A stretch of 64,000 nucleotides of DNA from Sulfuricaulis limicola (GTDB lineage Bacteria > Pseudomonadota > Gammaproteobacteria > Acidiferrobacterales > Sulfurifustaceae). The DNA lies in assembly GCF_002355735.1 (NCBI RefSeq), contig NZ_AP014879.1:868001-932000 (forward strand), in the 5' to 3' direction. Position 1 is the first letter of the stretch, and each line of letters begins with the position of its first letter. Made by a program: the position numbers and the translations under genes. Below are positions 12,573-29,435 of the stretch, piece after piece. The notes beneath the pieces were generated by a model. The model ran no database searches. It saw only the letters and a list, made by a program, of their open reading frames with translations, and was not told the DNA's origin.

Positions 12573-14542
<1,970 letters not shown>

Positions 14543-14564
<22 letters not shown>

Positions 14565-14646
14565 ACGCGGATTAGTAACGAATATGAAAAATTTTTCGAA
14601 TTTATTTGTTAAATATCTGTGTTCATTTGCGTTAATCTGCGGGTTC
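14543..14646. repeat. Inverted-repeat element across the ccmF/ccmH junction
   Basis: The left arm (about 14543-14574) contains GATGAACGCGGAT-type units repeated in tandem. The right arm (about 14611-14646) is an imperfect reverse complement, with roughly 23 of 28 positions pairing. The central ~35 bases are AT-rich. The element covers the last codons of ccmF and the ccmH signal-peptide codons. It resembles the short palindromic intergenic repeats seen in many environmental bacteria. Confidence 0.7.
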
Positions 14647-15072
14647 GCATTTTTTTCTGTTTCTACTTTTGCCGAGCCGGTGACGGAAGACCCGCTGGAG
14701 CGGCAGGTGCTCGACATCGGCAAGGACTTGCGCTGCGCGGTGTGCCAGAACCAGCCGATCTCGGAATCGAACGCCGATCTCGCCAAGGACATGCGGAATA
14801 TCATCCGTGAACAAATTCAGGCCGGAAAATCGCGCGAGGAGATCGTCAACTATTTCGTCGAACGCTATGGCGATTACGTGTTGATGAATCCGCCCAAGCG
14901 CGGCCCGGGCACGGTGGTGTGGCTCGCGCCGGTGGTCCTGCTGCTGGCCGTGGGCATCTCCGGATTTTTATTCCTGCGTCATCGGCGCCAGGAATCGCTG
15001 CCGCCGGCGCCAAAACTCTCCCAGGAAGACGCCGCGCTCGTGCGCGCCGCGCGCAAACAAAATCGCATATGA
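14584..15072 (+). CDS. ccmH: Cytochrome c maturation protein CcmH (CcmL type)
   Basis: 162 residues from the ATG at 14584, 19 bases after the ccmF stop; an ATG at 14551 inside ccmF would add 11 residues. The thiol-reducing motif LRCAVCQNQPI is intact in the typical context, ahead of the ADLAKDMRNIIREQI and GDYVLMNPP blocks. A C-terminal membrane anchor follows (VVWLAPVVLLLAVGISGFLF). It works with CcmG to keep apocytochrome cysteines reduced. The signal peptide is partly encoded by the right arm of an inverted-repeat element. The stop overlaps ccmI as ATGA. Confidence 0.93.
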   Translation: MKNFSNLFVKYLCSFALICGFAFFSVSTFAEPVTEDPLERQVLDIGKDLRCAVCQNQPISESNADLAKDMRNIIREQIQAGKSREEIVNYFVERYGDYVLMNPPKRGPGTVVWLAPVVLLLAVGISGFLFLRHRRQESLPPAPKLSQEDAALVRAARKQNRI

Positions 15073-15947
15073 TCTGGCTCGCCGTCGTCGCCCTGTTGAT
15101 CGCGGCCGCCACGGCCTGGTACCTGGCGCGTCCGCTGGCGCGCGTCATGGTTACGGACGATCGCGAACGGCGGAATCAGTTGCAGCAACTGCGTGACCGG
15201 CTGCTGGTGCAGCTGGACGAGCTGGATATCGAGGAAGGCGACCGGAATATCGACACCAACGTTCTTTCCGACGAGCGCAACCGGCTCGAGGCGGAGCTGG
15301 CGGGGGTGTTGCACGAGCTGGAACTGCCGAAGGAAAAGAAGAAAAAGAAAAAGGCCATAGCGGTATCCCGCCGCGGCTGGGCGGTTGCGCTGGCGCTGTT
15401 CGGCGTCATGCTGCCGCTGTCCGCGGCCGGTCTTTATGCATTGTATCAGCGCCCGATTCTGGCCTATCTGGCCAATCCCGAGGCGCTTGCCGATCCCTCG
15501 ATGCCGCCCGATGTGATGAAAATGGTCGCGCGTCTGGAAAACCGCCTGGCCGGGCAGCCGGAGGACGCCGACGGCTGGTTCCGTCTGGGTCGCGCCTATG
15601 CCGTGCTCGGGAGGGGCGAAGCGGCCAACGCGGCCTATGCGCGCGCCTACAAGCTGACGCCTGATAATCCGGAGCTGGTGGCGGAGTACGCCGTATTCCT
15701 CTATCAGGGCGACCCGCAGAATACCGGTGGCCAGGTATTCGGCCTTTTCAGCCGCTTGCACCAGATGGATCCGGAAAACCGCGATGCGCTGTGGTTTCTC
15801 GGTTTCGCGGCCTATCAGAAAGGCGACCACAAGCAGGCCCTCGGATACTGGGACCGTCTGCTGAAGTCCTTGCCGGCCGACAGTCCCGAGGCCGAGCACA
15901 TGCGCGCCATTACCGCCAAAATGCGCCAGCAACTGGGAAAAAAATAA
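15069..15947 (+). CDS. ccmI: Cytochrome c biogenesis TPR protein CcmI
   Basis: 292 residues from the ATG overlapping the ccmH stop. The N-terminal part has a membrane segment, a charged coiled-coil region and a second membrane segment (GWAVALALFGVMLPLSAAGL) after a run of lysines. The C-terminal half is periplasmic TPR: AENRLAGQPEDADGWFRLG-like helices and AYARAYKLTPDNPELVAEY. CcmI holds apocytochrome c C-termini and delivers them to CcmFH. A longer frame reaching back into ccmH is a shadow and is rejected. Confidence 0.93.
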   Translation: MIWLAVVALLIAAATAWYLARPLARVMVTDDRERRNQLQQLRDRLLVQLDELDIEEGDRNIDTNVLSDERNRLEAELAGVLHELELPKEKKKKKKAIAVSRRGWAVALALFGVMLPLSAAGLYALYQRPILAYLANPEALADPSMPPDVMKMVARLENRLAGQPEDADGWFRLGRAYAVLGRGEAANAAYARAYKLTPDNPELVAEYAVFLYQGDPQNTGGQVFGLFSRLHQMDPENRDALWFLGFAAYQKGDHKQALGYWDRLLKSLPADSPEAEHMRAITAKMRQQLGKK

Positions 15948-16026: not shown

Positions 16027-16644
16027 ATGACCCGCTTGCCACATTCCCGTCACCTGATAGCGCTGTTGCTGGTCTCCGGCGCATTTTTCGTTGAACCTGC
16101 GCTGGCGGGGATCTACACCTTTACCGACGCCAGCGGCGTGATGCACTTCACCAACGTCCCGTCCACCCCGCGCTATGCCGACATGAAGCGCGTGGCCTAC
16201 ATGCCCGAACCGGTGTCGACGACCCGCCGGGCACGCTTGGTCGATCCAGGCCGCTTCAACCCGCTGGTCGAACAGGCGGCGCGCGAGCATCAGATCGATC
16301 AGGCGCTGCTGCGTGCCGTGATCGCGGTGGAGTCGGGTTACGATCCGAATGCTGTCTCGCGCAAGGGTGCCGTGGGTTTGATGCAACTGATGCCGCAAAC
16401 CGCGCGGCGTTATGGCGTCAGGAACATGTACGACCCGGCCCAGAACATCCAGGGCGGGGCGCGTTATCTGCGCGACCTGATGGGGAAATTCAACAATGAC
16501 CTGCCGCTGGTGCTGGCCGCCTATAACGCCGGGGAAGAAGCCATCGCCCAGTACGGCAACCGCATCCCGCCGTACCGCGAGACGCGCTCCTACGTCCCGC
16601 GGGTCCTGGATTTTTACCGCCAATATCAGCGCGGTTCGCGCTAG
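16027..16644 (+). CDS. Lytic transglycosylase (SLT domain)
   Basis: 205 residues. A signal peptide ends near residue 27 (EPALAG). A short DUF4124-like strand region (IYTFTDASGVMHFTNVP) precedes the SLT catalytic domain, which spans about residues 80-200. The catalytic Glu is in IAVESGYDPNAVS, and the family blocks GAVGLMQLMPQTARRYGV and LVLAAYNAGEEAI follow. It should cleave the glycan strand to leave anhydro-muramyl ends. It converges on the SPOR/beta-barrel gene, and the two stop codons share the palindrome CTAG at 16641-16644. Enzymes of this type open peptidoglycan for trans-envelope machines, so a role in inserting the conduit is plausible but inferred. Confidence 0.92.
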   Translation: MTRLPHSRHLIALLLVSGAFFVEPALAGIYTFTDASGVMHFTNVPSTPRYADMKRVAYMPEPVSTTRRARLVDPGRFNPLVEQAAREHQIDQALLRAVIAVESGYDPNAVSRKGAVGLMQLMPQTARRYGVRNMYDPAQNIQGGARYLRDLMGKFNNDLPLVLAAYNAGEEAIAQYGNRIPPYRETRSYVPRVLDFYRQYQRGSR

Positions 16645-19202
16645 AAGTCCCAGCGATAACCGAGCGACCAGTAGCGCCGGAGGGTTTTATCTTCCGTGGT
16701 GGCGCTTGTGGTGGTTGTGCGCTCCTCACCGAATTCCGCTTCGAGCGTGACGTTCTCCTTCCATTTGTAACTGGGCCTTAATACCGGCGCAAAGCGGTCC
16801 AGCTTGCTGTCGGTGGTTGTATTGTGCTGACTGTACCAGCTCAGCGTGACGTCCAGCCCCCAGCTCGCGCCCCACAGCAGGCGGTTGGTCAGGGAGTAGG
16901 AATTGCCGGTGTAATCCGGGCCGTCGATGCGGCTGATGTTGAGCACGTTGACGTCGCGTTGCGTGAACAGCCCGGTGCCGATGATATTTCCCGTATAGGT
17001 ATGAATATCACCGGTGTCCGGTTGCGCCGGCTGGTTGACCGTGCCGACGGTGGCCGAGGTGTGCGCCGATTGCACGTCAAACCCCGCCTGCCAGCGTGGG
17101 CTCAGCGACTGCGATACGCCGACACTGAACATGTCGGTCGTGGACGTCAGATCGAGGGCCTGCTGCTTGAGCTGCTCGTAGGACTTGGTCTGGAGCTGCG
17201 ACTCGATTGACGTGTTGGTTTCGCCGAGCAGGGCATTGGTCAGCGTCAGTGACGGTGTCTTGCGTTTGTCGTACAGCACATGCGCGGACGTGCCGCTGCC
17301 GCCGGTCCAGTTGCCCTGCAGCAGGAAGATGTTCGGTGCGGCAAACTCGGTATCGTAGTCATACAGGCTGTATACGGTGAACGCCGGGCTGAAGTAGCGC
17401 AGCTCGCCGCCCACGGCGTTGCGGTCCGTGACCCCGTCCGCCTTCTGCTGCATGGTGTAGAGACTGCCGCCCCAATGCTCCGCGAACGGGCCCAGATCCA
17501 CGCTGGCGCCGTAGAATTTCAGGTCGGTATCGAATGAATTATCGGCGGGTTTGCCGCCCACCACATTGACGCGCCACTTGGGCGTGAAGTTGTAGCCGGC
17601 GGTGGCGCCGTCGAAGCGCCCGAGTACGCCGCCGGAACTGCCGGGCTGGCGGCCAAGGCGCGCCGAGTAATCGCGCTTGCGGTCCTTGACCTCGTAATAA
17701 AGCGCGCTCAGACGATTGGCGTCATTCTGCCCCGTGAGAAAATTCTTGGTATGGGTGTCACGTACCACAAAACGATTGTCGAAATCCTCGCTGCGATAAC
17801 GGTGCGTCAGGTTGAGATTCGTGACCAGCGCGCTTTGGTCGGTCTGGGTCAGGGTCTCCTGGTTTTGCGAACCGGCGGTCGGGATCAGATCGGTGGTGTC
17901 GACCTTGCTGGCGCCGTGATAGTAATACTGCGACAGGTTTCCGATGACGGTCGACAGTACCTCGACACGCGGTTTGGCAGCCTTGAAGACTGGCGAAGGA
18001 GTGGGGCTGGCAGCGTCAAGCGCGGCGATGCGCTGGCGCACACGGTCCGCGCCTTCGCCGGTCGGATACAGCCGCAGATAAAGCTCGTATTCCTTGTGCG
18101 CCGCCGCGGCTTCCCCGGAGCGTTCGCGCGCGAGGCCGATGAACTCCTGCGCATCCTGGGAGTAACGGTTGGGCGGCATGCGCAACAGTGCATCGAGGGT
18201 GACGACGGCGGTGCGATTGTCACCGCGCGCCAGGGCGGCGCGGGCCTTGTCCATCAGCGCCAGCGCTTCCTTGTCGCCGGACGTCGCCGGGAGCACCGCC
18301 ACGCTTGGCAGGCTTGCCGGAGGGGCGGCAGGCGCGGCCCGGGCAGGCACCTTTGCCGGCGGTGCAACCGGAACGGCAGGCGCCGCCAGGACCGGCACCG
18401 CAGGCGCGACCAACGCCATCCGCACCGAATCGTTTTGTTCCCTGGGCGTGATGCGCGTCACCTTCGCGTTCGGGTAAGCCGCTTTCAATTGCTGGCGTGC
18501 GGCAAAGACTTCCTCCTCTTTCTCGAAAAAGCCAAGTTTCAGCTGGTAGCGGGTCTTGTCTTTTACGCCTGTCTGCGTGACATAAAGCCGGTTGCTTTTC
18601 AGTGAGGCTGGCAGGGGTGAACGCGTCGTGCGTATGGGCTGTTTGCTTTCCTCGAGCTGAATGACGTAGAGCGCCCGGGGAGAAATGACGGCCGCCGTGG
18701 CCGGGACTGTCGGTGTCGGAGCAGGTGCCGGCACCGGCACCACCGGGATCGGTTGTACAGGCACGGCCTTGGCGGTCTCCACCGGCGGCATCGCCGGTTT
18801 TGCCACCGGGGCCGTACGCTGAATGGTGGCGTATTCGTTGCGGCCGATCTCGGTGACCGACGCCGCGGGGTATTTGTCCAGCACGCTGTGGCGATAGGCG
18901 TTGGCTTCACTGAAGCTGTCGAAAAATCCGACGCGCAGGTTGTAGACGTTCTTGCCGAACGCCTTGCTTTGAATCAGGTATACCGGACGATCCGGGATAT
19001 CGCGCTTGGCCTGTTTGTCTGAAATCGGCGTAAAGCCGCTGCGCAACGTGACCACGAAACGCTTTTCAGGGGTGGCATCCGTGACGGTATTGGTGTTGCC
19101 GCTGTCGCCTGAAATGGCATGGGCGGGCGATACCGATGAGAGATTCAAAAGCAGCAGAAACAGCACGACGAGGGGGATAGCCCGCATGGTAGTTATATTC
19201 AA
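16641..19202 (-). CDS. SPOR-SPOR-TPR-beta-barrel outer-membrane protein, candidate porin of a multiheme conduit
   Basis: 853 residues. A signal peptide ends near residue 29 (SPAHA). Two SPOR-like domains follow, at about 45-115 (YLIQSKAFGKNVYNLRVGFF) and about 172-250 (LYVTQTGVKDKTRYQLKLGF). They are joined by Pro/Ala-rich linkers to a TPR pair at about 305-395 (ALARGDNRTAVVTLDALLRM). From about residue 415 to the end the sequence alternates polar and aromatic residues like an outer-membrane barrel, and it ends in Phe (LGYRWDF). SPOR domains bind denuded peptidoglycan, so this looks like a barrel tethered to the wall. It is the last gene of the operon with two giant multiheme cytochromes. Identification as the electron-conduit porin is inference. 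Confidence 0.75.
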   Translation of the reverse strand: MNITTMRAIPLVVLFLLLLNLSSVSPAHAISGDSGNTNTVTDATPEKRFVVTLRSGFTPISDKQAKRDIPDRPVYLIQSKAFGKNVYNLRVGFFDSFSEANAYRHSVLDKYPAASVTEIGRNEYATIQRTAPVAKPAMPPVETAKAVPVQPIPVVPVPAPAPTPTVPATAAVISPRALYVIQLEESKQPIRTTRSPLPASLKSNRLYVTQTGVKDKTRYQLKLGFFEKEEEVFAARQQLKAAYPNAKVTRITPREQNDSVRMALVAPAVPVLAAPAVPVAPPAKVPARAAPAAPPASLPSVAVLPATSGDKEALALMDKARAALARGDNRTAVVTLDALLRMPPNRYSQDAQEFIGLARERSGEAAAAHKEYELYLRLYPTGEGADRVRQRIAALDAASPTPSPVFKAAKPRVEVLSTVIGNLSQYYYHGASKVDTTDLIPTAGSQNQETLTQTDQSALVTNLNLTHRYRSEDFDNRFVVRDTHTKNFLTGQNDANRLSALYYEVKDRKRDYSARLGRQPGSSGGVLGRFDGATAGYNFTPKWRVNVVGGKPADNSFDTDLKFYGASVDLGPFAEHWGGSLYTMQQKADGVTDRNAVGGELRYFSPAFTVYSLYDYDTEFAAPNIFLLQGNWTGGSGTSAHVLYDKRKTPSLTLTNALLGETNTSIESQLQTKSYEQLKQQALDLTSTTDMFSVGVSQSLSPRWQAGFDVQSAHTSATVGTVNQPAQPDTGDIHTYTGNIIGTGLFTQRDVNVLNISRIDGPDYTGNSYSLTNRLLWGASWGLDVTLSWYSQHNTTTDSKLDRFAPVLRPSYKWKENVTLEAEFGEERTTTTSATTEDKTLRRYWSLGYRWDF

Positions 19203-19230
19203 AAATTTAAATGTAGGAAAGGAAGGTTTT

Positions 19231-19728
19231 TTATTTGGCCGGATTGCTTTTTGCCGCCGGAGTGTTCCTGGGTGCGTTCGCCGGGCCGGTTTCCACCGGC
19301 ACCACGGGCAGGTAAATCACGATGCTGCGATTATCGTCGCCGGGCCGGACGTTGTAGTTGACGTCGCGATTGAAGCGCACCGTCAGCGACCACGGATCAC
19401 GCTGCAGATTGAGCGACACGGGCGGGTCGAAGGTGATGGTCGCAGCCGGTAACACGGGCGTGGCGGAAACGTGGCGGGTTTCCTGCCGCAGACTGATGTC
19501 CTGCAGGTCCAGTGCCGCGATATTGACGAATATTTTCAGTAATTGCCCGTGTTCCTGCGGGAAGTGGCTCACGTAGTTGACCGGCATGGTGAAATGTATC
19601 CGGATCTCCGCCCATTCCGGCTCAACCGCGGTTTCGACATCATCCAGCAGGACCTCCTGCGCGCTGACGATCCCGGGACCGGCGATGACCATGAACAGCA
19701 GGGTCAGCCCGAGCAGCGGACTCTTCAT
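19231..19728 (-). CDS. Small exported beta-rich protein of the conduit operon
   Basis: 165 residues from the ATG at 19728; a longer upstream start would overlap the cytochrome gene. A signal peptide ends near residue 23 (GIVSAQ). The rest is predicted beta-strand, with alternating hydrophobics such as WAEIRIHFTMPVNYVSHFP and SLTVRFNRDVNYNVRPG. The pattern is loosely like AMIN-type periplasmic beta domains. It ends in a Pro/Ala/Lys tail. It lies 28 bases before the SPOR-barrel gene and 53 after the 25-site cytochrome, so it is probably a periplasmic accessory of that complex. No function can be assigned. Confidence 0.75.
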   Translation of the reverse strand: MKSPLLGLTLLFMVIAGPGIVSAQEVLLDDVETAVEPEWAEIRIHFTMPVNYVSHFPQEHGQLLKIFVNIAALDLQDISLRQETRHVSATPVLPAATITFDPPVSLNLQRDPWSLTVRFNRDVNYNVRPGDDNRSIVIYLPVVPVETGPANAPRNTPAAKSNPAK

Positions 19729-19781
19729 GATCCAGTTCCCTGTGATGCAGGTTCGTTGTGGCATATTCGACGCACCTCGGT

Positions 19782-21893
19782 CTAGTTGGTCCATCGGCTG
19801 TAAGGGGTGCCCTGGCTACCCAGGGGCCGGTGGCAGCCGGACGCGGAACAGTCTGTCTGGCCCTGGTATCTTTCATAGTGGTTCAACGATTTCTTGTCCA
19901 TGGTGCCAAGATAGCTCGTGCCGCTTGCGTGGCAGCCTTTGCACCAGCCCGAACCGCTGCCCAGGCTGCCGTTGTGATTCATTGTCTGCGACGCAAAGCT
20001 GGTCGTGCTCTTGTGGCAAGAGTCGCAGTTCATGCTGGCGCCGGCAAGCAGCTGGGACTGATAGGGGATGTGGTTGGTGGGCGCGGCCAGCCCCGGACCA
20101 CCCTGGTAGTGGCAGGTGCTGCAGGTGCCCGGGCTGATGCCCGTGTGACTGAACGTGGCGCCGGCAAAGCTGGTGTAATTCTTGTGACAGGTATCGCACG
20201 AGGCCGTGGTCGCGACATGGTTGGCCGGCTTGCCCAGCGCGTTCCACTGGACGAAGGAGCCATTGTGGCAGGTCGAACACTGACCGGCGATGACGCCCTG
20301 GGTGGCCGAGTGCGTAAAGGTGGAGGTCGTGAACGTGCCTCCGGTCGAATGACAGGCATCGCACGACAAGGTCGTCGGGATGTGATTGCCCGGCTTGCCG
20401 GTGGCCTGGGAGCCGTTATGACAGGTGGCGCAGCCACCGGGCGTCACGCCGGTGTGATTGAAACCGGCGCCGGCAAACGTCACGTAGCCCGTGTGACAGG
20501 TGTCGCAGGAGGCCGTGGTGGCGACGTGGGTCGCATGTTTGCCCAGCGCGTTCCACTGGGTATAGGCGCCGTTGTGACAGGTGGAGCACTGGCCGGGGAT
20601 GACACCCTGCGTGGCGGAATGATTGAAGGACGAACTGGTAAACGTGCTGGCCGCCGAATGACAGGCGTCACACGACAACGACGTCGGGATGTGATTGGCG
20701 GGTTTCCCGGTCGCCTGCGAACCGTTATGACACGTGGCGCATGCGCCCGGCGTCACGCCGGCGTGGTTGAACGTCGCGCCGGCAAAGCTCGTGTAATTCT
20801 TGTGACAGGTGTCGCAGGAGGCCGTGGTGGCGACGTGGGCCGCATGTTTGCCCAGCGCATTCCACTGGGTATAGGCGCCGTTGTGACATGTGGAGCACTG
20901 ACCGGCGATGACACCCTGGGTAGCGCTGTGATTGAACGTTGAGGTCGTGAACGTGGTGCCCGTGCCATGACAGGCATCGCAGGATTGCGTGGTCGGAATA
21001 TGGTTGCCCGGTTTGCCGGTCGCCTGCGTGCCGTTGTGGCAGGTGGCGCAGGCACCCGGTGTGACGCCGCTGTGATTGAAGGTTGACCCGGCCATGACGA
21101 AGGACTGGAAACCGGAATGGCAGGTGTCGCACGAGGCCGTGGTGGCGACGTGGGCCGCATGTTTTCCCTGCGCGTTCCACTGGGTGAAGGAGCCGTTATG
21201 ACAGGTGGCGCATTGACCGGGGTTCACGCCCTGGGTGGCGGAATGGTTGAACCGGGACGTGGTAAACATGCCCCCGGTCGTGTGACATGCGTCGCAAGAG
21301 AGACTTGTTGGAATATGGTTGCCCGGTTTGCCGGTCGCCTGTGAACCGTTGTGACAGGTGGCACAGCTACCCGGTTTCACGTCCATGTGTGTGAATCTCG
21401 CGCTCATCCATGTGGTGGTGCGATGGCATGTGTCGCAGGGCTGGTTGGTGACCGGATGATTCGTCGGTTTGCCGGTGGCGATATTATTGTTATGGCACTG
21501 CGCGCACTGGTGTGGCATTACGCCGATGTGAGTGAACCGGGCCACCTTCCACGAAGCGGTCGAGGAATGACATTGGCTGCACGGCTGCATTGTCGGTATG
21601 TGATTCTGGGGTTTGATGGTGGTGGTCTGGATACGGCTGCCCGGGGTGTGGCAGGTTTCGCATTTTTTGGGCGTGCCCTTGAAGGTGCCCTGGACGTGGC
21701 AGGTTTCGCAGGGAATCTGCACATGTGCCCCGGTCAGCGGAAATCCCGTTTTCACGTGATCGAAACGCACATTGCGTTTGGCGTCGGCCGCCGGCGCGTC
21801 GCCGTGAGGAATGGCAAGCAGGAACAGACCCAGCATGGTAACGACGCCAATCCAGGACAAAAGTTTCCGGAAATTATGAGCTGAATCTTTCAT
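19782..21893 (-). CDS. Multiheme c-type cytochrome, 24 CXXCH plus one CX4CH
   Basis: 703 residues with a signal peptide ending near residue 36 (APAADAKR) and no lipobox. I count 24 CXXCH motifs and a final CSASGCH (CX4CH), so up to 25 covalent hemes. Many spare histidines (FNHSG, NHIPT, KHAAHVATT) could serve as distal ligands. The central part is a tandem array of a 103-residue unit carrying four hemes, including ASCDTCH, GACATCHNG, LSCDACH and GQCSTCHNG. Outside the hemes it is rich in Ser, Thr, Gly and Asn and poor in charge, as in cell-surface cytochromes. Its place beside a candidate porin suggests the outer or barrel-inserted wire; location is inferred. Confidence 0.93.
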   Translation of the reverse strand: MKDSAHNFRKLLSWIGVVTMLGLFLLAIPHGDAPAADAKRNVRFDHVKTGFPLTGAHVQIPCETCHVQGTFKGTPKKCETCHTPGSRIQTTTIKPQNHIPTMQPCSQCHSSTASWKVARFTHIGVMPHQCAQCHNNNIATGKPTNHPVTNQPCDTCHRTTTWMSARFTHMDVKPGSCATCHNGSQATGKPGNHIPTSLSCDACHTTGGMFTTSRFNHSATQGVNPGQCATCHNGSFTQWNAQGKHAAHVATTASCDTCHSGFQSFVMAGSTFNHSGVTPGACATCHNGTQATGKPGNHIPTTQSCDACHGTGTTFTTSTFNHSATQGVIAGQCSTCHNGAYTQWNALGKHAAHVATTASCDTCHKNYTSFAGATFNHAGVTPGACATCHNGSQATGKPANHIPTSLSCDACHSAASTFTSSSFNHSATQGVIPGQCSTCHNGAYTQWNALGKHATHVATTASCDTCHTGYVTFAGAGFNHTGVTPGGCATCHNGSQATGKPGNHIPTTLSCDACHSTGGTFTTSTFTHSATQGVIAGQCSTCHNGSFVQWNALGKPANHVATTASCDTCHKNYTSFAGATFSHTGISPGTCSTCHYQGGPGLAAPTNHIPYQSQLLAGASMNCDSCHKSTTSFASQTMNHNGSLGSGSGWCKGCHASGTSYLGTMDKKSLNHYERYQGQTDCSASGCHRPLGSQGTPYSRWTN
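20110..21340 (-). repeat. 309-bp tandem repeats inside the 25-site cytochrome gene
   Basis: A marker string (GCCGTGG in the CDTCH context) recurs at 20203, 20512, 20821 and 21136. The spacings are 309, 309 and 315 bases. Each unit encodes 103 residues with four heme sites. The near-identity of the units at DNA level points to recent amplification or ongoing homogenisation. Confidence 0.85.
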
Positions 21894-21917
21894 GATGGAT
21901 CTCCTCGACTGGCATTG

Positions 21918-23729
21918 TTAATGTCCCGGGGACACGCCACTGACTCCCGGGCGGATTTTCCTGAACGAACTGGTTACGTGACATTGCTCGCAGAGTTTCC
22001 CGAAACCGCCGTTATGCACGTCGTCGGCGTCATGACAACTGATGCAGGCGTTGCTCTGCGTTACCTTTCTCGGCATGGGTTTGGTGTGGCAGGCATCGCA
22101 GGCGATGCCTTTATGCCCACCGTCGAGCCTGAACGTGGTTTGTTTGTCGTGGTCGAAACGCCAGGATTCCCACGAGGAAGCGTTATGGCAGGTTTCGCAG
22201 CGTGGCCCCAGCTTGTACTTGTGCTTGTCGTCCTTCTCGTGGCAGCTGACGCAGGCGATGCCGGCGTCCTTGAAGGCCGGCGTTTTGTGGCATTCCTTGC
22301 ATTCGACCTTGGCGTGTTTTCCCAGTAGCGGGAAGCGGGTCAGTCCGTGGTCGATCCTGGCCACCTTCCAGTCACGCTCGTTGTGACAGGACTCGCATTT
22401 GTTGCCTTCCTGGCCCTTGTGCTTGTCGTCCTTTTCGTGGCAGGCGATGCAGGTCGTTGGCAGTTTTTCCTTGAACAGGGAGCCGATGTGGCATGATTCG
22501 CACTTGGCCTCGGCATGCTTGCCCCGCAACGGGTATTTGGTGTCCCGGTCATGATTGAAAGCGGTGGTCTTCCAGCTTTTTTCGACGTGGCAGGACTCGC
22601 ATTTTTCACCGAATTGGCCCTTGTGTCCGTTGCGGTCGTCATCCTTCTTGTGGCAGGCGACACATGCGCTCTTGAGCTTCTCCTGGTACAGGAAGCCGGT
22701 GTGGCAGCTGTCACATTTGGCCGCAAGATGCTTGCCGCGCAGCGGGTATTTGGTGTCGCGGTCATGGTTGAAAATGGAAATGCCCCAGTCTTTTTCCGTA
22801 TGGCAGGACTGGCACTTCTCGCCGAAACGGCCTTTATGTCCTTTCTTGTCATCGTCGGCCTTGTGACAGGCGACGCAGGCGGTTTTCAGTTTTTCCTTGT
22901 ATAAAAATCCGGTGTGGCAGCTGTCACACTTGGCCTGCAGGTGCTTGCCCCGCAGCGGGTATTTGGTGTCGCGGTCATGGTTGAAAATGCTCGTCTTCCA
23001 GTCGCGGTCGCTGTGGCAGGATTCGCATTTCGTGCCGTACCGGCCCTTGTGTTCGTCGTCTTTCTTGTGACAGGCGACGCAGGCCGTCGGCGCGCCCTTG
23101 AATTTCGGATCCGCATGACAATCCTTGCAGATGACATCACGGTGCTTCCCGGTGAGCGGGAACTTGGTCTTGCTGTGATCAAAGAGGGTTTTCTTCCAGT
23201 CGCTTTCCTGGTGGCAGTCGGCACACTGCGTTCCGAGGCTGCCCTTGTGTTTGTCGTCTTTCCTGTGACAGGCAAAGCAATCCGACGGCGCATCGCGGAA
23301 TTTTGTTTTTGGTTTGTGGCAATCGCGGCACAGAACTTTCGCATCCGCATGCCCGCCCTTCAGCAGGAAGTCCGTGAGCTTGTGGTCGAAGGATTTTTCA
23401 TCCACCGGGGCGATATTCATCGTGCGTCCCTTATGTTCCGTATGGCAGGCGCGGCATTCCTGCTCCGGGATGCGACCGTGGTGTCCCTGTTTCTGTGCAA
23501 CGTCCCTGGCGACGTCCTTGTGACAATCCAGGCACAGGGCGTTCTGGGCGGATTTCTTGAAGCGCGCGTGACAGTTTTTGCAATCGCCCTCGAGGTCCGC
23601 GTGGCCCTCGATGACCTTGCCGGGCATCAGCACGGATTCGAGCGAATCGGCGTATGAGCCGGTCGGCAGGCAGAAGCTGGAAAGTCCCATGATCAGCCAT
23701 GCGAATAATGTCCGCGCCAAGCAAGCCAT
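21918..23729 (-). CDS. 24-heme c-type cytochrome, Lys-rich, probably periplasmic
   Basis: 603 residues with a signal peptide ending near residue 27 (GSYADS). I count 24 CXXCH motifs. A repeating unit of 71 residues with three hemes runs through the middle, with CDSCHTGFLY, ACVACHKxDD and EKCxSCH, followed by FNHDRDTKYPLRGKH. The regular spacing is like that of DmsE/MtrA- or NrfB-type wires but much longer. The protein is strongly basic (Lys/His), unlike the adjacent 25-site cytochrome. It lies 11 bases after the cytochrome b gene and 24 before the second multiheme gene. Most simply it is the periplasmic wire that takes electrons to or from the membrane cytochrome b. Confidence 0.93.
   Translation of the reverse strand: MACLARTLFAWLIMGLSSFCLPTGSYADSLESVLMPGKVIEGHADLEGDCKNCHARFKKSAQNALCLDCHKDVARDVAQKQGHHGRIPEQECRACHTEHKGRTMNIAPVDEKSFDHKLTDFLLKGGHADAKVLCRDCHKPKTKFRDAPSDCFACHRKDDKHKGSLGTQCADCHQESDWKKTLFDHSKTKFPLTGKHRDVICKDCHADPKFKGAPTACVACHKKDDEHKGRYGTKCESCHSDRDWKTSIFNHDRDTKYPLRGKHLQAKCDSCHTGFLYKEKLKTACVACHKADDDKKGHKGRFGEKCQSCHTEKDWGISIFNHDRDTKYPLRGKHLAAKCDSCHTGFLYQEKLKSACVACHKKDDDRNGHKGQFGEKCESCHVEKSWKTTAFNHDRDTKYPLRGKHAEAKCESCHIGSLFKEKLPTTCIACHEKDDKHKGQEGNKCESCHNERDWKVARIDHGLTRFPLLGKHAKVECKECHKTPAFKDAGIACVSCHEKDDKHKYKLGPRCETCHNASSWESWRFDHDKQTTFRLDGGHKGIACDACHTKPMPRKVTQSNACISCHDADDVHNGGFGKLCEQCHVTSSFRKIRPGVSGVSPGH
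22330..23170 (-). repeat. 213-bp tandem repeats inside the 24-heme cytochrome gene
   Basis: The string GGGTATTTGG recurs at 22531, 22744 and 22957, exactly 213 bases apart, with more diverged copies on both sides. Each unit encodes 71 residues and three heme sites. Unit length and heme count differ from those of the neighbouring cytochrome, so the two genes were amplified independently. Confidence 0.8.
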
Positions 23730-23740
23730 CCCCGGTCAGA

Positions 23741-24649
23741 TCAGTACATGTGCACGGCGATGACATGCGCGATCCCGCTGATGATCAGCATGAATACAAA
23801 CGGAACATGGAGCACGTGCCACAGCGAGAACAGCCGCTCATAGGCGCTGAATCTGGCCACGTCGATGATGGCATCCAGGTAGTGACGGATGGCCATCTTT
23901 CCGGCGACCAGGCGCTTCTCCAGCTTGTCGGTGTCCCAGGCATGTTTACGGGCATGGTCACGACCGAGGCGCTTCAGTTCTCTGGTTACCAGGTGATAGG
24001 TCCATCTGGCGCGCATGCCCACGGTGACGAACAGCCAGAAGCGGGACCACGCGCTTGTGTGTTCGCCGAGCGTGGAGGCTTCGAATGCCTTGAGCCGGGC
24101 TTCGAGATGCGGGGCAAAATGGAATTTGGATTTGACATCGCCGCCGACGATGCCGAGATTCGTCTGCACCTCCTGCAGGGTGGCACTGCGGCCGTACAGC
24201 CCATGGTGAATCTTGCGGTAGATGACCCGGCCGATGATGCCGCTGCCGGCGACCAGGACCATGCAGCTCAGCGCCACGATCGCGTTCACCGATCCGGCGC
24301 GGAACGTGGAATGAAACAGGATCAGGGTCGGTCCCGTGATGCCGAGGAACATGTGCAGGCGGAACCAGTGCCTGGTCGGCCCCCAGTTGTGCATGAAGCG
24401 GATATGCTTGCGCAGCGAGTAGAGTAGCAGCGTCAGCATCATGAGGCCGCCGACGACGCCGAGGTAATAACCGAAATCGTCACCGGCCTCGTAGTAACCG
24501 CCGTTTCTGACGGCCCATCCGGCTATGACGAGCAAAGCCAGCACCGGCCATAGCCAGATGCGCAGCGACGCATCGCGGGTTTCTTTTTTGGCGGCGGCGG
24601 GCCGTGGCACGGCCTGACTGGCACGCATGACTGCTTGTTGCTGACTCAT
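23741..24649 (-). CDS. Inner-membrane cytochrome b, ferric-reductase-like
   Basis: 302 residues with five hydrophobic segments, at about 32-50, 60-80, 95-118, 122-146 and 274-300. Histidines are placed as for two membrane hemes: RLHMF and LFHST in segment 3, and LWHVLH and AHVIAVH in the last segment. The pattern resembles ferric-reductase/cytochrome b folds. A charged loop of about 110 residues containing KIHHGLYGRS sits between segments 4 and 5. It is first in the operon with both multiheme cytochromes and the porin candidate. It probably exchanges electrons between the quinone pool or a soluble partner and the 24-heme cytochrome. Exact family not certain. Confidence 0.82.
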   Translation of the reverse strand: MSQQQAVMRASQAVPRPAAAKKETRDASLRIWLWPVLALLVIAGWAVRNGGYYEAGDDFGYYLGVVGGLMMLTLLLYSLRKHIRFMHNWGPTRHWFRLHMFLGITGPTLILFHSTFRAGSVNAIVALSCMVLVAGSGIIGRVIYRKIHHGLYGRSATLQEVQTNLGIVGGDVKSKFHFAPHLEARLKAFEASTLGEHTSAWSRFWLFVTVGMRARWTYHLVTRELKRLGRDHARKHAWDTDKLEKRLVAGKMAIRHYLDAIIDVARFSAYERLFSLWHVLHVPFVFMLIISGIAHVIAVHMY

Positions 24650-24900
24650 CTTCTCCCTCTATTGCCGACCACCTTCCGGGAAGAGGTGGGTCATTTTTAT
24701 GATCTATTCTTGCTTACGGAGCCCCGCGGCGGTTTGCCGCAGACATTCCGGGGCCTGAAAAAACCATTGGTTTCATGCAATTAAAGAGTAGACGACGGCC
24801 CAAGACCACGCTAAACCGTATGAACCGTATGTATTAGCTGACGAACGGAGGCGGTTTTGCCCCAGGCCCCTGGCTGGGCCGGGGTAAGCTGCAAGATGTC
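24650..24900. promoter_or_regulatory. Divergent promoter region of the cytochrome operon and the ferredoxin-flavoprotein
   Basis: 251 bases between divergent genes. Several hairpins are visible. One is CCTTCCGGGAAGAGG near 24670. Another is a GC-rich palindrome, CCCCAGGCCCCTGGCTGGGG-like, at about 24859-24886, just ahead of the rightward start at 24901. That gene lacks a clear Shine-Dalgarno site, so the hairpin could affect its translation. No clear -35/-10 pair or known operator was identified. Confidence 0.45.
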
Positions 24901-26202
24901 ATGACAACTGATTTTATCGTTTATCTGCTGTATTTGGCGCCGCTGACCGTGGTGCTGTTCTTTTATCTGCGCCGGCACAAGAAAAAGGAACAACACCATG
25001 TCATGCAGATGCAGCAGGCTGTCGAAGCGGGGCTCACGGAACCGGCCTCGTTGCATCCGGTGTTCGACCCGCGGCGCTGTCTCGGTTCCGGCGCCTGCGT
25101 CAAGGCCTGCCCGGAGGGCGCGATCGGGATCATCAGGGGCAAGGGGCATCTGGTGAAACCGGCCGTGTGTATCGGTCACGGCGCCTGCGCCGCGTCCTGT
25201 CCGCACGACGCCATCACGCTCGTGTTCGGCACCGCCAAGCGCGGCATGGATATTCCCCAGGTCAATCCGAATTTCGAAACCAATGTCCCGGGCCTGTACA
25301 TCGCCGGAGAGCTGGGTGGCATGGGGCTTATCCGCAAGGCGGTGGATCAGGGGCGTCAGGCCATCGAATCCATTCGCAAGGGGAAGAAAGGCAGCGCGCC
25401 GCTGGATGTGGTCGTCATTGGCGCCGGGCCGGCGGGTATCGCGGCCTCGCTCGCGGCGCTGGAGCACAAGCTGAAATTCGTCACGCTGGAGCAGGAAGAC
25501 TCGCTGGGGGGCACGGTATACCACTATCCGCGCAACAAGATCGTCATGACCGCGCCGATGCAGTTGCCGATACTGGGCAAGGTGAAAATGAGCGAGATCA
25601 GCAAGGAAGCGCTGATGGAATTCTGGCAGGGGGTGGTGAAGAAGACCGGCCTCAAGCTGAATTTCAGCGAGCGCATGGAAACGATCTCGAAGAACGTAAA
25701 TGGTTTTACCGTAAAAACCTCGCGAGGTTCCTACAACACCAAAGCGGTGCTGCTGGCCATCGGCCGGCGCGGTACGCCGCGCAAGCTGGAGGTGCCGGGA
25801 GAGGAGCTGCCCAAGGTGGTCTATCGTCTCATCGATCCGGAGCAATACCGCAACCAGCAGGTGCTGGTGGTGGGTGGCGGCGACAGCGCGCTGGAAGCGG
25901 CGCTGGCGCTGGCCGATGAACCCGGAACCGGGGTGACACTTTCCTATCGTGGCGAGGCCTTCGGGCGCGTGAAGGAGAAGAATCGTCAGCGCCTGCAGGA
26001 GGCGGAGAAGAATGGCCGGATAAGGGTATTGTTGCAGTCGAACGTAAAGAAAATCGATCCGGACAAGGTCACACTGGATCATGCCGGAAAAATGATTGAG
26101 ATCAAAAACAGCGCTGTCATCGTCAGCGCCGGCGGCGTGCTGCCAACACCGTTCCTGAAAGAGATCGGGGTGATGGTGGAAACGAAGTTCGGAACGGCGT
26201 GA
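24901..26202 (+). CDS. Membrane-anchored ferredoxin / thioredoxin-reductase-like flavoprotein
   Basis: 433 residues. An N-terminal membrane segment (about 5-22) is followed by two iron-sulfur motifs, CLGSGACVKACP and CIGHGACAASCP. Both lack the second Cys of a standard CX2CX2CX3CP and carry Ser or His there. A piece reading ETNVPGLYIAGELGGMGL follows; this normally ends the FAD domain of thioredoxin-reductase-like enzymes. The FAD Rossmann motif VVVIGAGPAGIAAS and the NAD(P) motif VLVVGGGDSALEAA come only later. The protein ends after IVSAGGVLPTP, where the missing piece would normally follow, so the fold looks circularly permuted. It diverges from the multiheme operon and could link NAD(P)H to that chain; this is inference. 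Confidence 0.85.
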   Translation: MTTDFIVYLLYLAPLTVVLFFYLRRHKKKEQHHVMQMQQAVEAGLTEPASLHPVFDPRRCLGSGACVKACPEGAIGIIRGKGHLVKPAVCIGHGACAASCPHDAITLVFGTAKRGMDIPQVNPNFETNVPGLYIAGELGGMGLIRKAVDQGRQAIESIRKGKKGSAPLDVVVIGAGPAGIAASLAALEHKLKFVTLEQEDSLGGTVYHYPRNKIVMTAPMQLPILGKVKMSEISKEALMEFWQGVVKKTGLKLNFSERMETISKNVNGFTVKTSRGSYNTKAVLLAIGRRGTPRKLEVPGEELPKVVYRLIDPEQYRNQQVLVVGGGDSALEAALALADEPGTGVTLSYRGEAFGRVKEKNRQRLQEAEKNGRIRVLLQSNVKKIDPDKVTLDHAGKMIEIKNSAVIVSAGGVLPTPFLKEIGVMVETKFGTA

Positions 26203-26227: not shown

Positions 26228-26749
26228 CTAGGACAATTCCTTGATCAGCGGTGCCAGCTTCTGCTCCCATACTTCCGGCGTGATCGGGCCGATCTGCTTG
26301 TAGCGGATCACGCCCTGTTTGTCGATGACGAAGGTTTCCGGCACGCCATAGACGCCGAGATCGATCCCCAGCCGTCCGTCGTTGTCCATGAGGCTCAGCT
26401 CGTAAGGGTTGCCGAGGCTGCCGAGCCACCCGAGCGCATCCTCGCGCTTGTCTTTGTAGTTGAGCCCGATAATGGTCACGGCCTTGCGCCCGGTGAGTTC
26501 ATTAAGATAGGGATGTTCCTGGCGGCAGGCGACACACCACGAGGCCCAGACGTTGAGCAGATAGGCGCGTCCGAGCAGATCGTCGCGTCCGACCTTGCGT
26601 GCGGGATCGGTGACCGTGGCGAGTGAAAAGGCCGGCAGGGATTTCCCGATCAGTGGCGAAGGAATTCTGCGCGGGTCGAGATTGAGACCGTAGGCGAGCA
26701 GCAGGCCCAGTGCCACGAAGATAACCAGCGGGACGACATACTTTTTCAT
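26228..26749 (-). CDS. ccmG: Thiol-disulfide interchange protein CcmG/DsbE
   Basis: 173 residues. A membrane anchor (about 5-22) is followed by a thioredoxin fold. The active site is WASWCVACRQEHP, and the cis-Pro region reads YGVPETFVIDKQG. The CcmG-specific IPSPLIGKSLPAFSL segment precedes it. It reduces apocytochrome c or CcmH in the periplasm. The start overlaps the ccmE stop as ATGA, so ccmF, which normally lies between ccmE and ccmG, is missing from this operon. It is the last gene of the leftward ccm block. Confidence 0.95.
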   Translation of the reverse strand: MKKYVVPLVIFVALGLLLAYGLNLDPRRIPSPLIGKSLPAFSLATVTDPARKVGRDDLLGRAYLLNVWASWCVACRQEHPYLNELTGRKAVTIIGLNYKDKREDALGWLGSLGNPYELSLMDNDGRLGIDLGVYGVPETFVIDKQGVIRYKQIGPITPEVWEQKLAPLIKELS

Positions 26750-27204
26750 GGCTTTTTCATTTCTTTGCCAGCCGCGTACGACCCGCCCTGCAGGGCCTGC
26801 GCCGCTTCCGGCGGCATGTATTTTTCGTCGTGCTTGGCGAGCACTTCACTTGCCACAAACCGGTTTCCGTCCTGCAAGCGGCCCTGCGCCACCACGCCCT
26901 GGCCCTCGCGGAACAGATCGGGCAGCAGGCCTTCGTAGTGCACCGGCAGTTTCTTGTTGAGGTCGGTGATGATGAAGTCCACTTTCAGTCCGTCAGCGGA
27001 GCGCTTCACCGATCCCTGCTCCACCAGCCCGCCGATGCGGATGGTTTGGCCGGGAGCAATGCTGACCTTGCCTTCCAGAATTTCCGTGGGCGAATGAAAG
27101 AACACCAGGTTCTTGTTGAAGGCATTCAGCACCAACAGGGTGGCGACCGTCAGTCCGACGACGCCGGAAACGATTATGGCCAGCCGCTTGTGTCTTGTCT
27201 TCAT
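26746..27204 (-). CDS. ccmE: Heme chaperone CcmE
   Basis: 152 residues, inner-membrane anchored at about 8-28, with a periplasmic OB-fold domain. The covalent heme-binding His is in LAKHDEKYMPPE near residue 128. Other family blocks are GQTIRIGGLVEQGSV and FIITDLNKKLPVHYEGLLPDLF. It receives heme from CcmC and passes it to CcmF. It overlaps ccmD at its start and ccmG at its end by four bases each. Confidence 0.96.
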   Translation of the reverse strand: MKTRHKRLAIIVSGVVGLTVATLLVLNAFNKNLVFFHSPTEILEGKVSIAPGQTIRIGGLVEQGSVKRSADGLKVDFIITDLNKKLPVHYEGLLPDLFREGQGVVAQGRLQDGNRFVASEVLAKHDEKYMPPEAAQALQGGSYAAGKEMKKP

Positions 27205-27371
27205 CGGGTTTGTTCCTTGAGGCGCATGAATTCACGCAGCTGGCGCCGCACCGCTTGGCGGCGGCGCAACGGCAGGTAGAGGTTCAGAATCAGGATCAGC
27301 GCGGCCAGTCCGTAGGAACTCCATACGTACAGGCCATAGCCGCCCATGGCAAAGAATTCCGTCCAGTTCAT
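27201..27371 (-). CDS. ccmD: Heme exporter protein CcmD
   Basis: 56 residues from the ATG at 27371, which overlaps the ccmC stop as ATGA. It begins MNWTEFFAMGGYGLYVWSSY, the typical CcmD N-terminus, followed by one membrane segment and a basic C-terminal tail (PLRRRQAVRRQL). CcmD helps release holo-CcmE from CcmABC. Longer in-frame extensions upstream lie inside ccmC and are rejected. Confidence 0.93.
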   Translation of the reverse strand: MNWTEFFAMGGYGLYVWSSYGLAALILILNLYLPLRRRQAVRRQLREFMRLKEQTR

Positions 27372-28096
27372 GGTTTGGACTCCAGCATATCGGCGACCCA
27401 GCCGGTATGACGCTCGCGCTCCAGGATTTCGTTGCGCATGCGCAGCAGCGCCACGGCGACAAAATAGAAGGTGAAGGCGAAGGCCATCAGCAGCAGGGGC
27501 GCGATCATGCTTGGATGAATCGAAGGCGTGCCGACCTTGCTCACCGAGGCCGGCTGGTGCAGGGTGTTCCACCACTCCACGGAGAAATGGATCACGGGAA
27601 TGTTGACCACGCCTACCAGCGCCAGGATGGCGGCGGCACGCGCCGCACGGCGGGGGTCGTCAATGCTGGCCTGCAGTGCCATGTAGCCTATGTACAGGAA
27701 AAACAGGATAAGTTCCGAGGTCAGGCGCGCGTCCCAGACCCACCAGGCACCCCACATCGGTTTGCCCCAGAGCGAACCGGTGGCGAGCGCGAGGAAGGTG
27801 AACGAGGCGCCGATGGGCGCGCAGCTGCTGGCGAAAATTTCCGCCAGCTTGATGTTCCACACCAGCGCCACCGCGCCGGCGCCGGCCATGAGCACGTAGA
27901 TGAACATGGACATCCAGGCCGCCGGCACGTGGATGAACATGATGCGGTAGCTTTCCCCCTGCTGGTAATCCGCCGGGGCGACGAACAGGCCCAGGTAAAG
28001 ACCCGCCAGCAGCAGCACCGCAGTGACGGCGGCGGTCCACGGGATCAGTTGTCCGGCGAGGGAATAGAAGAATTTGGGTGAGGCGTATTTATGCAT
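27368..28096 (-). CDS. ccmC: Heme exporter permease CcmC
   Basis: 242 residues with six membrane segments. The tryptophan-rich WWD motif reads PMWGAWWVWDARLTSELIL, flanked by conserved His-containing loops (MFIHVPAAWMS and VIHFSVEWWNTLHQP). CcmC loads heme onto CcmE. It lies two bases after the ccmB stop and overlaps ccmD by four bases. Confidence 0.96.
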   Translation of the reverse strand: MHKYASPKFFYSLAGQLIPWTAAVTAVLLLAGLYLGLFVAPADYQQGESYRIMFIHVPAAWMSMFIYVLMAGAGAVALVWNIKLAEIFASSCAPIGASFTFLALATGSLWGKPMWGAWWVWDARLTSELILFFLYIGYMALQASIDDPRRAARAAAILALVGVVNIPVIHFSVEWWNTLHQPASVSKVGTPSIHPSMIAPLLLMAFAFTFYFVAVALLRMRNEILERERHTGWVADMLESKP

Positions 28097-28098
28097 GC

Positions 28099-28776
28099 TT
28101 AGTCCAAAGATACGCGCAATGCCGCCGCGGCGGCCCAGGGCGCGAAGGTCAGGGCCAGCGCGAGAAAGGCTCCCAGCAGGGAAAAATGCGCTCCGGTATC
28201 GATGCCGGCAATGACTCCCGCCACGCTGCCGGCGCCGAAAATCAGGATCGGAGTATACAACGGCAATACCAGCAGCGAAACCAGCACGCCGCCGCCGCGC
28301 AAGCCCAGTGTCAGCGCCGCGCCGACCGCGCCGAGCAGGCTCAGGATCGGTGTCCCCAGCAGCAGCGACAGCACGAGCGTGCCGATGGCGGATTCCGGCA
28401 GGTGCATCTGCACCGCCAGCAGGGGCGAGATCAGCACCAGCGGCAGGCCGGTGAGCGTCCAGTGGGCCGCGATCTTGGTCAGTGCCAGCAACGCCAGCGG
28501 ATAGGGCGCCAGCGCCATCTGCTCCAGGGTGCCGTCCGCGTGGTCGTTGGCGAACAGCCGGTTGAGCGAAAGCATGGTCGCAAGCAGCGCCGCGACCCAG
28601 ATGACGCCGGGTGCGATGGTGCGCAGCACCGCAGGCTCGGGTCCGAGACCCAACGGAAAAAGGCTGACCACGATCACGAAAAAAACCAGCGGTGTCAGGA
28701 TGTCCGTGCTGCGGCGCATGGCAACCGTCAGGTCGCGCCAGAACAGGCGGGCAATGGCTTGCAGTAATTTCGGCAC
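28099..28776 (-). CDS. ccmB: Heme exporter permease CcmB
   Basis: 225 residues from a GTG at 28776, one base after the ccmA stop. This gives an N-terminus (PKLLQAIARLFWRDL) that fits the family. A TTG at 28821 would overlap ccmA by 44 bases and add an untypical leader. Six hydrophobic segments include ILTPLVFFVIVVSLFPLG and AALLATMLSLNRLF. It is the membrane partner of the CcmA ATPase. No clear Shine-Dalgarno site is visible, which fits translational coupling to ccmA. Confidence 0.93.
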   Translation of the reverse strand: MPKLLQAIARLFWRDLTVAMRRSTDILTPLVFFVIVVSLFPLGLGPEPAVLRTIAPGVIWVAALLATMLSLNRLFANDHADGTLEQMALAPYPLALLALTKIAAHWTLTGLPLVLISPLLAVQMHLPESAIGTLVLSLLLGTPILSLLGAVGAALTLGLRGGGVLVSLLVLPLYTPILIFGAGSVAGVIAGIDTGAHFSLLGAFLALALTFAPWAAAAALRVSLD

Positions 28777-28777
28777 G

Positions 28778-29389
28778 CTAGGTGACCCGGATATGCAGAA
28801 TGGATTTGGTATCGACGTCAATTTCCTGGTGCGAGGTGATGACGATCATTCCTCCTTGGGAAAGATGCTCGATCAGTATGTTTGTCATCAGGGCCACCGA
28901 ATCCACGTCGAGCCCGCTCAAGGGTTCGTCCAGAATCCACAGCGGCTTGTGTTCAACCAGCAGACGCGCGAGCGCGAGCCGGCGCTTCTGGCCCTGCGAC
29001 AGAATTTTGGAAGGGAAGTGGTGATACGCGGCGAGACCGAGACGCTCCAGCGTCGTTCCGATGCGCGCATGGTCCGCGTCGCCGCTCAGGCTGGTAGCCA
29101 CGTGGAGATTTTCGACCGGCGTCAGGTCGCCCTGGATACCGTTGGCATGCCCGATGTAGGCGAGCTGGGCGCGATAGTCGTCGCCGAGTTTGTGGATGGC
29201 GTTGCCGAGCCAGCGAATCTCGCCGGCGTGGGCGCGCGTCAAGCCGCAGAGCGTGCGCAACAGGGTGGTCTTGCCGCTGCCGTTGACGCCGGTCACGTGC
29301 ATCAGCTCTCCCGGCTTGAGCGAGAAGGACAGGCGGCTGAACAGCGGCCGGTCGCCGCGGACGCATTCCAGATCGACTGCTTCCAGCAA
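28778..29389 (-). CDS. ccmA: Cytochrome c biogenesis ABC ATPase CcmA
   Basis: 203 residues from a TTG at 29389, chosen because GGAGG lies 6 bases upstream (29396-29400) and the resulting LLEAVDLECVRGDRPLF start is typical. An upstream start at 29425 would lie before that ribosome site. Walker A is GVNGSGKTTLL, the signature is LSQGQKRRLALAR, and Walker B is PLWILDEPLSGLD. It powers release of holo-CcmE from CcmC. It is the first gene of ccmABCDE-ccmG, directly downstream of tRNA-Arg on the same strand. Confidence 0.95.
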   Translation of the reverse strand: MLEAVDLECVRGDRPLFSRLSFSLKPGELMHVTGVNGSGKTTLLRTLCGLTRAHAGEIRWLGNAIHKLGDDYRAQLAYIGHANGIQGDLTPVENLHVATSLSGDADHARIGTTLERLGLAAYHHFPSKILSQGQKRRLALARLLVEHKPLWILDEPLSGLDVDSVALMTNILIEHLSQGGMIVITSHQEIDVDTKSILHIRVT

Positions 29390-29435
29390 AGACGTCCTCC
29401 CCCGGACAGGTTGAAGATACATCAATCTTTGAACT

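Follow-up and report, generated by a model that had tools for sequence, protein, structure and literature searches.

Genes at the locus

The window, that is, the whole stretch of 64,000 nucleotides of Sulfuricaulis limicola DNA that was analyzed, contains five closely spaced genes read leftwards and a sixth, divergently encoded gene. Their positions in the window, with the evidence on which each description rests, are as follows.

23741–24649, minus strand: inner-membrane protein (IMP), a predicted di-heme b protein of 302 aa (motifs, hydropathy, loop charges)
21918–23729, minus strand: 24-heme cytochrome of 603 aa, predicted periplasmic (CXXCH count, composition)
19782–21893, minus strand: 25-heme cytochrome of 703 aa, predicted extracellular (heme motifs, composition, Cytochrome_C7 matches)
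19231–19794, minus strand: small exported AMIN-like beta protein, 187 aa from its first start (domain survey, structural matches)
16641–19202, minus strand: outer-membrane porin of 853 aa with a TTG start (Pfam, AlphaFold2, Foldseek)
24901–26202, plus strand: divergent flavoprotein of 433 aa, predicted to face the cytosol (Pfam, PDB relatives, co-occurrence)

A preliminary description of this DNA had reported five tightly packed leftward genes with short gaps, and all five open reading frames (ORFs) were recovered at the positions it gave, on the minus strand. The gaps are of 11, 24, 53 and 28 bases when the small gene is started at position 19728. The 53-base gap of the preliminary description implies this internal ATG and a small protein of 165 aa, and the N-terminus of the 165 aa form resembles a signal peptide, making 19728 the likely start. 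A promoter scan of positions 16500–25000 found a single weak site, where shuffling led to an expectation of 2.4; since this is below the shuffled expectation, no promoter is claimed. The coordinates of the preliminary description end just before the divergent flavoprotein gene, which was left out there.

The operon is flanked by what we take to be cytochrome c maturation genes, namely ccmF, ccmH and ccmI on the left (12573–15947, plus strand) and ccmG, ccmE, ccmC and ccmB together with an ABC ATPase gene on the right (26228–29425, minus strand). Genes ccmC, ccmE and ccmG also adjoin the corresponding cluster at the related locus L039, and the same genes plus ccmF do so at L040.

Two giant cytochromes

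The 603 aa cytochrome contains 24 CXXCH motifs, or 25.1 aa per heme, and the 703 aa cytochrome contains 24 CXXCH motifs plus one CX4CH at residue 682, or 28.1 aa per heme, in agreement with the counts of the preliminary description. Heme motifs in 1000 shuffles of each cytochrome averaged about 0.3 and never exceeded 3. The content of Thr, Ser, Ala and Gly amounts to 45% in the 703 aa cytochrome, which also gave Cytochrome_C7 matches in Pfam, versus 25% in the 603 aa cytochrome, which is Lys-rich. The 603 aa protein is predicted to be periplasmic and the 703 aa protein to be extracellular.

Related loci were collected by scanning genome contigs with a b-protein alignment; out of 272 relatives, the best 80 were retained together with the neighboring sequence. 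The first cytochrome encoded after the b protein has 18, 21, 24 or 27 CXXCH motifs in 66 of 69 complete ORFs, so that the heme counts of the periplasmic wire look as if they had been built up by three-heme units. The remaining three (17, 10 and 9 motifs) are, in our reading, wrongly picked or split ORFs. The heme number of the surface cytochrome varies widely between loci.

The porin and its detached domain

The 853 aa protein matched the SPOR and TPR families in Pfam. Its AlphaFold2 model, built with a 25-sequence alignment, had a mean pLDDT of 78.6, with the barrel mostly above 90, and it places two SPOR-like segments ahead of a helical TPR region, with a C-terminal barrel of about 22 strands (residues ~410–853). 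The preliminary description had read this protein as a SPOR-TPR-barrel protein and had set beforehand, as a test of its reading, the presence of a barrel in the C-terminal half; the Pfam matches and the model agree with both. The best PDB matches of the model in Foldseek were outer-membrane ushers and porins, with low whole-chain TM-scores. Among the 25 aligned porins, Pfam detected SPOR in 8 and TPR in 21. This alignment (A2) covers 25 of the 31 loci positive for the AMIN-like domain described below, L062, L078, L090, L095, L117 and L118 having been left out as cut off, oddly started, near-duplicate or with no porin ORF located. A further alignment (A3) leaves out L062, L075, L078, L090, L095 and L117. 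An iterated porin HMM drifted onto cytochromes and was dropped.

A domain model of the 187 aa protein matched 32 ORFs in 31 loci. The AMIN-like domain forms a separate gene in six loci (the window, L039, L040, L046, L049 and L118), lies inside a porin-type ORF in 24, near the front except in L117, where the ORF start is doubtful, and is split over two overlapping ORFs in L090. Judged by sequence, the 187 aa protein is the AMIN-like domain from the N-terminus of the PCC3 porin, encoded separately here, PCC3 being the type of porin-cytochrome cluster to which the operon is assigned below. An independent subunit is ruled out by the occurrence of the same domain within the porin in 24 loci, and the small beta-rich protein, previously taken as an operon member in its own right, is a split-off porin domain instead. 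The top four VIA matches of a model of the small protein were to PilQ, the type IVa pilus machine and AmiC, with Z of 7.0–7.7 (values below 8 being moderate) and 4.8 for the next match; the aligned parts are presumably the AMIN domains of these proteins. A plain Foldseek search with the same model returned no match at E 0.001, and the Pfam AMIN family PF11741 gave no match to the window protein and matched one of 25 members at E 0.059. Peptidoglycan binding is known for both AMIN and SPOR domains, so that the porin would be anchored to the cell wall.

Inner-membrane protein and assignment to PCC3

The 302 aa IMP contains the motif WX3HX13H twice as well as SGXXG, and it is predicted to carry two b hemes. 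In the window and the best 80 of 272 relatives, both WX3HX13H motifs were found in 78 of 81 loci and SGXXG in all 81. A hydropathy scan yielded segments that fit helices 1, 2, 4 and 5, helix 3, with the first heme motif, being weak, and a basic loop of about 130 aa lies ahead of the last hydrophobic segment, as seen from hydropathy and loop charges. The ferric reductase-like family PF01794 did not match the IMP at E up to 1. An hhalign comparison with 16 PF01794 matches, of the MsrQ type, gave a probability of 0.1%, which rules out a detectable MsrQ-type ferric reductase, the narrowness of the set leaving distant kinship possible. A profile search of PDB sequences with the IMP gave matches at chance level (best E 1.1). 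The b-protein alignment (A1) comprises 17 sequences, that of the window and those of 16 of the 29 other loci from the b-protein genome search.

The five-gene cluster is a PCC3 porin-cytochrome cluster, a type whose layout is published and whose function the PCC3 papers call untested. In PCC3 a porin is combined with two giant cytochromes, one extracellular and one periplasmic (He et al. 2017, PMC5566968; PMC10734462), and the same is predicted for the cluster in the window. According to He et al. (2017, PMC5566968), the two giant cytochromes are encoded side by side, with 22–39 aa per heme, and the IMP has about 300 aa, five helices, SGXXG and two WX3HX13H motifs; the IMP described above has this size and these motifs, the surface cytochrome is rich in Thr, Ser, Ala and Gly as in other PCC3 clusters, and the 25 and 28 aa per heme counted here compare with that published range. 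Because these hallmarks of size, motif and composition are found in the window, its layout is of a known kind, and a new type is ruled out by the PCC3 clusters already in print (He et al. 2017, PMC5566968). Thus, of the interpretation given in the preliminary description, the trans-envelope conduit stands, whereas the layout that it did not recognize is the published PCC3 type, and the side-by-side giant cytochromes, cited there as part of the unfamiliar layout, are a defining trait of that type. Two features set the window apart from the published type: the AMIN-like porin domain is a separate gene here, and a flavoprotein partner, on which the PCC3 text examined is silent, is divergently encoded.

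The logic of a barrel combined with multiheme cytochromes is shared with MtrCAB, MtoAB and PioAB. However, the two cytochromes scored 85.2 and 16.1 bits with TIGR03508 (MtrA/DmsE), for which the cut-off is 192.2 bits, and the porin had no match to TIGR03509 (MtrB/PioB) at E up to 1, which rules out membership of the Mtr family for either cytochrome and for the porin.

The locus survey found the gene set again in other genomes; the preliminary description had named the lack of such co-occurrence as a refutation of its reading. The same genes are also carried by another member of the family of the host. PCC3 spans genomes titled as belonging to iron-oxidizer, sulfur-oxidizer, methylotroph and Nitrospira groups.

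The divergent flavoprotein

The divergent flavoprotein gene is the strongest clue to the mechanism of the system. Its 433 aa product has an N-terminal membrane segment, two Fe-S motifs and, by Pfam, FAD and NAD(P) domains. The membrane segment is present in 58 of 66 flavoproteins, that of the window included, and Lys plus Arg residues average 4.8 after the segment versus 0.4 before it in the 66 relatives. The protein is predicted to be a membrane-anchored, cytosol-facing oxidoreductase of the 2x[4Fe-4S]-FAD-NAD(P) type. Motifs GxGPxG and GGGDSAxEAA are kept in the 66 aligned flavoproteins, and putative binding of NAD(P)H is read from them. In the second Fe-S motif (CIGHGAC) the second Cys is replaced by a His that is invariant in 66 of 66 sequences; the equivalent position of the first Fe-S motif holds Ser in 47, Cys in 11 and Ala in 8 (n = 66).

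Relatives of the flavoprotein in the PDB are ferredoxin-NADP reductases of the TrxR-like kind and YpdA/Bdr. All of them have FAD and NAD(P) domains, whereas the membrane anchor, the N-terminal 2x[4Fe-4S] domain and the conserved His in place of one Cys distinguish the flavoprotein from these relatives. No CXXC occurs beyond residue 112 in any of the 66 flavoproteins, which rules out a disulfide reductase of the thioredoxin reductase type.

Co-occurrence of the flavoprotein with PCC3

The flavoprotein was found in 66 of 81 PCC3 loci (the window plus the best 80 of 272 relatives), and it is divergently encoded within 700 bases in 48 of the 75 loci that have at least 2 kb upstream. When neighboring genes other than cytochromes were clustered, the flavoprotein appeared in 60 of 81 loci, the next commonest family not belonging to PCC3 appearing in 17 of 81. 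For the 15 loci lacking it, 14 genomes were searched (L105 was left out): 13 of these carry the flavoprotein elsewhere, two of them in two pieces, and the genome search detected none in G596.

A survey of 194 relatives found both proteins in 31 genomes (including that of the host), only the b protein in one, only the flavoprotein in three and neither in 159 (Fisher p 2e-31, a value inflated by relatedness among the genomes). In the genome with only the b protein (G030), the b-protein gene is cut by a contig end. Those with only the flavoprotein are G010, where it lies at a contig start, G012, which is 63% complete, and G153, where it lies on a 3.5 kb contig with cytochrome pieces. Eight b-protein hits of 19–37 bits (G026, G061, G070, G094, G139, G146, G154 and G167) were counted as negative. 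Flavoprotein matches below 280 bits were taken as other flavoproteins; among the matches listed, scores fall from 283 to about 130 bits once second pieces of the same gene are set aside.

Among 398 Pseudomonadota, the flavoprotein was present in six genomes and a close b protein in the identical six, with cut-offs of E 1e-60 and E 1e-12, respectively; two of the six (the host genome and G141) also belong to the 194-genome sample. In G552 and G141 the b protein and the flavoprotein lie on different contigs, indicating that the link is more than one of neighborhood. In a seventh genome (G582), a homologous flavoprotein of 860 aa is encoded next to a distantly related b protein (25% identity). 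Three genomes that have two b proteins also have two flavoproteins. The flavoprotein is a near-obligate companion of PCC3: most PCC3 genomes examined carry it, usually adjoining the cluster.

The PCC3 cluster itself is in print, and its tie to the flavoprotein is new here. FAD, ferredoxin and SPOR are absent as whole words from the main text of He et al. (2017, PMC5566968), the figures and supplements of which, outside the scope of this search, might show the gene. The word ferredoxin is likewise absent from the main text of the PCC3 papers PMC8788666, PMC13386937 and PMC12016527. No paper naming the flavoprotein partner was found among the titles and abstract openings listed by searches of the open-licence literature. 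PCC3 is not named in the available parts of PMC6295460 and PMC11475568, and a recent paper on methanotrophs at anodes (PMC13322032) concerns, in its available part, an Mtr-type cluster.

Variants of the locus and PCC4-like clusters

At least 8 kb follow the b-protein gene in 38 loci, among them the window. Of these 38, 33 encode two or more cytochromes with at least eight heme motifs each, 26 encode the barrel, and in 12 no barrel was detected by profile. Several of these 12 loci are on Nitrospira-type contigs that end shortly upstream of the b-protein gene. The porin sits upstream of the b-protein gene in the related loci L072, L074 and L075.

Six loci (L084, L112, L092, L076, L096 and L116) show the b protein, a cytochrome and the flavoprotein in this order on one strand, and in L084 and L112 the cytochrome and flavoprotein genes overlap by 4 bases. 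No PCC3-type barrel was detected in L084, L112, L092, L096 and L116, which have at least 8 kb downstream (L076 is shorter). These five loci come from Rhodocyclales-type and other MAGs. A single strand encodes the flavoprotein, the b protein, the cytochromes and a TPR-like protein (identified by eye) in L077 and L118.

PCC4 has an IMP with the same motifs as here, and its cytochromes, unlike those of the window, have 4, 5 and 10 hemes and include no extracellular one (He et al. 2017, PMC5566968). In three PCC4-like clusters (L156, L159 and L160) a homologue of the flavoprotein, with Fe-S clusters, adjoins the b protein. L159 and L160 show both heme motifs of the b protein; the L156 contig ends within the b-protein gene. 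The homologue has about 800 aa and two cNMP-binding domains, and its segments are in a different order: the FAD segment with ETNVPGLYI, which precedes the Rossmann domains in the window flavoprotein, follows them in the homologue, so that the flavoprotein is circularly permuted relative to it, with the FAD segment shifted to the front. The next gene in L159 and L160 encodes a 10-heme cytochrome with an FHA-like N-terminus (identified by eye).

Proposed mechanism and alternatives

We consider it probable that PCC3 is a trans-envelope conduit whose b protein has the flavoprotein as its cytosolic partner, electrons being exchanged between the exterior of the cell and NAD(P)H or ferredoxin. The surface cytochrome with its 25 hemes would meet the 24-heme periplasmic wire at or in the large outer-membrane barrel, itself likely held to peptidoglycan through its SPOR domains and the separate AMIN-like protein. 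The periplasmic wire would join the b protein of the inner membrane, with its two predicted b hemes and five predicted helices. The partner of the b protein at the cytosolic face would be the 2x[4Fe-4S]-FAD protein of the divergent gene, itself anchored in the membrane, and the two together would be the counterpart of a transmembrane NADPH oxidase or ferric reductase. The path would lead from NAD(P)H or ferredoxin, through FAD and the Fe-S clusters, the b hemes, the 24-heme wire and the barrel, to the 25-heme surface wire. We infer the localization of the components, the contact between the flavoprotein and the b protein, the use of NAD(P)H and the direction of flow; co-occurrence is no proof of contact.

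The link to the flavoprotein suggests that PCC3 trades electrons with cytosolic NAD(P)H, perhaps outward, and is not simply an iron oxidase. Given that NAD(P)H is of low potential and that the membrane potential favors the exit of electrons, we lean to outward flow. A stricter form of this proposal, which we put forward tentatively and with some doubt, is that PCC3 and the flavoprotein make up an export line driven by NAD(P)H or ferredoxin, in which some 49 c-type hemes would lead to the surface with no need of the quinone pool, and the inner module would consist of an NADPH-oxidase-like b protein and a 2x[4Fe-4S]-FAD protein with an unusual His position.

Flow that is inward or linked to quinones is possible. 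PCC3 could be a quinone-linked oxidase of iron or minerals, in which electrons from outside reduce the quinone pool through the two wires and the b protein, and the flavoprotein has a side role, for example in making NAD(P)H with part of the current. Inward flow with a link to the quinone pool is the published model (He et al. 2017, PMC5566968), and PCC3 occurs in many iron-oxidizing Gallionellaceae, where it is treated as a candidate iron oxidase (PMC10734462). The available part of PMC12442390 reports that in Sideroxydans CL21 the PCC3 genes are expressed above the mean and that the copy 2 inner-membrane protein is significantly higher in iron-oxidizing cells. By contrast, both PCC3 clusters of Sideroxydans ES-1 are lower on Fe(II) than on thiosulfate, according to the available part of PMC8788666; the host of the window, S. 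limicola HA5, is described in the available part of PMC5024460 as an aerobic oxidizer of thiosulfate, tetrathionate and sulfur; and a near-obligate flavoprotein points to the cytosolic side. We regard such an oxidase as a serious alternative, though one that we do not favor.

The flavoprotein lies beside ccm genes in the window, L039, L040 and G552, so that a role in maturation is possible; it would then be an accessory of cytochrome c maturation for the giant cytochromes, outside the electron path. It adjoins ccmG-like genes in the window, in L039 and L040 and in several Methylotenera-type loci; in G552 it is located in a ccm region at a distance from PCC3, and in G012, a genome in which no b protein was detected, beside ccmC and ccmB (named by eye). 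However, its copy number tracks that of the b protein, with two of each in three genomes, which a maturation factor would not need, the flavoprotein is without a redox CXXC, and its homologue adjoins the b protein in PCC4-like clusters, where the cytochromes carry 5 or 10 hemes, all of which makes an accessory role improbable. Slightly less probable still is that the cytochromes serve to store electrons in the periplasm and at the surface, as a capacitor and not as a through-conduit. Such a capacitor role is mentioned for PCC3 (PMC10734462) and is suited to very high heme counts, but the dedicated barrel and b protein encoded alongside would be needless for storage alone.

If the export line is the true reading, the pair of b protein and flavoprotein, found also in PCC4-like clusters, would be an inner module shared more generally by several conduits that are at present classed as candidate iron oxidases. 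The near-obligate cytosolic flavoprotein offers a concrete, testable answer to the question of the electron source or sink of PCC3. It also calls for caution, PCC3 alone being unsafe as a marker of iron oxidation when other evidence is missing.

Other genes of the host

The host genome also encodes, at C1:2772460-2787693 (stretches L119 and L155), a decaheme lipoprotein-like protein of the OmcA/MtrC family (536 bits) and an MtrB/PioB porin (347 bits). Between these two lies a 678 aa protein in which nine heme motifs are fused to a cytochrome b561-type membrane domain, and no separate MtrA-like ORF was found in stretches L119 and L155. In the window, positions 9727–11649 (minus strand) encode a repeat-rich exported protein of 640 aa, the C-terminal anchor of which looks, by eye, PEP-CTERM-like.
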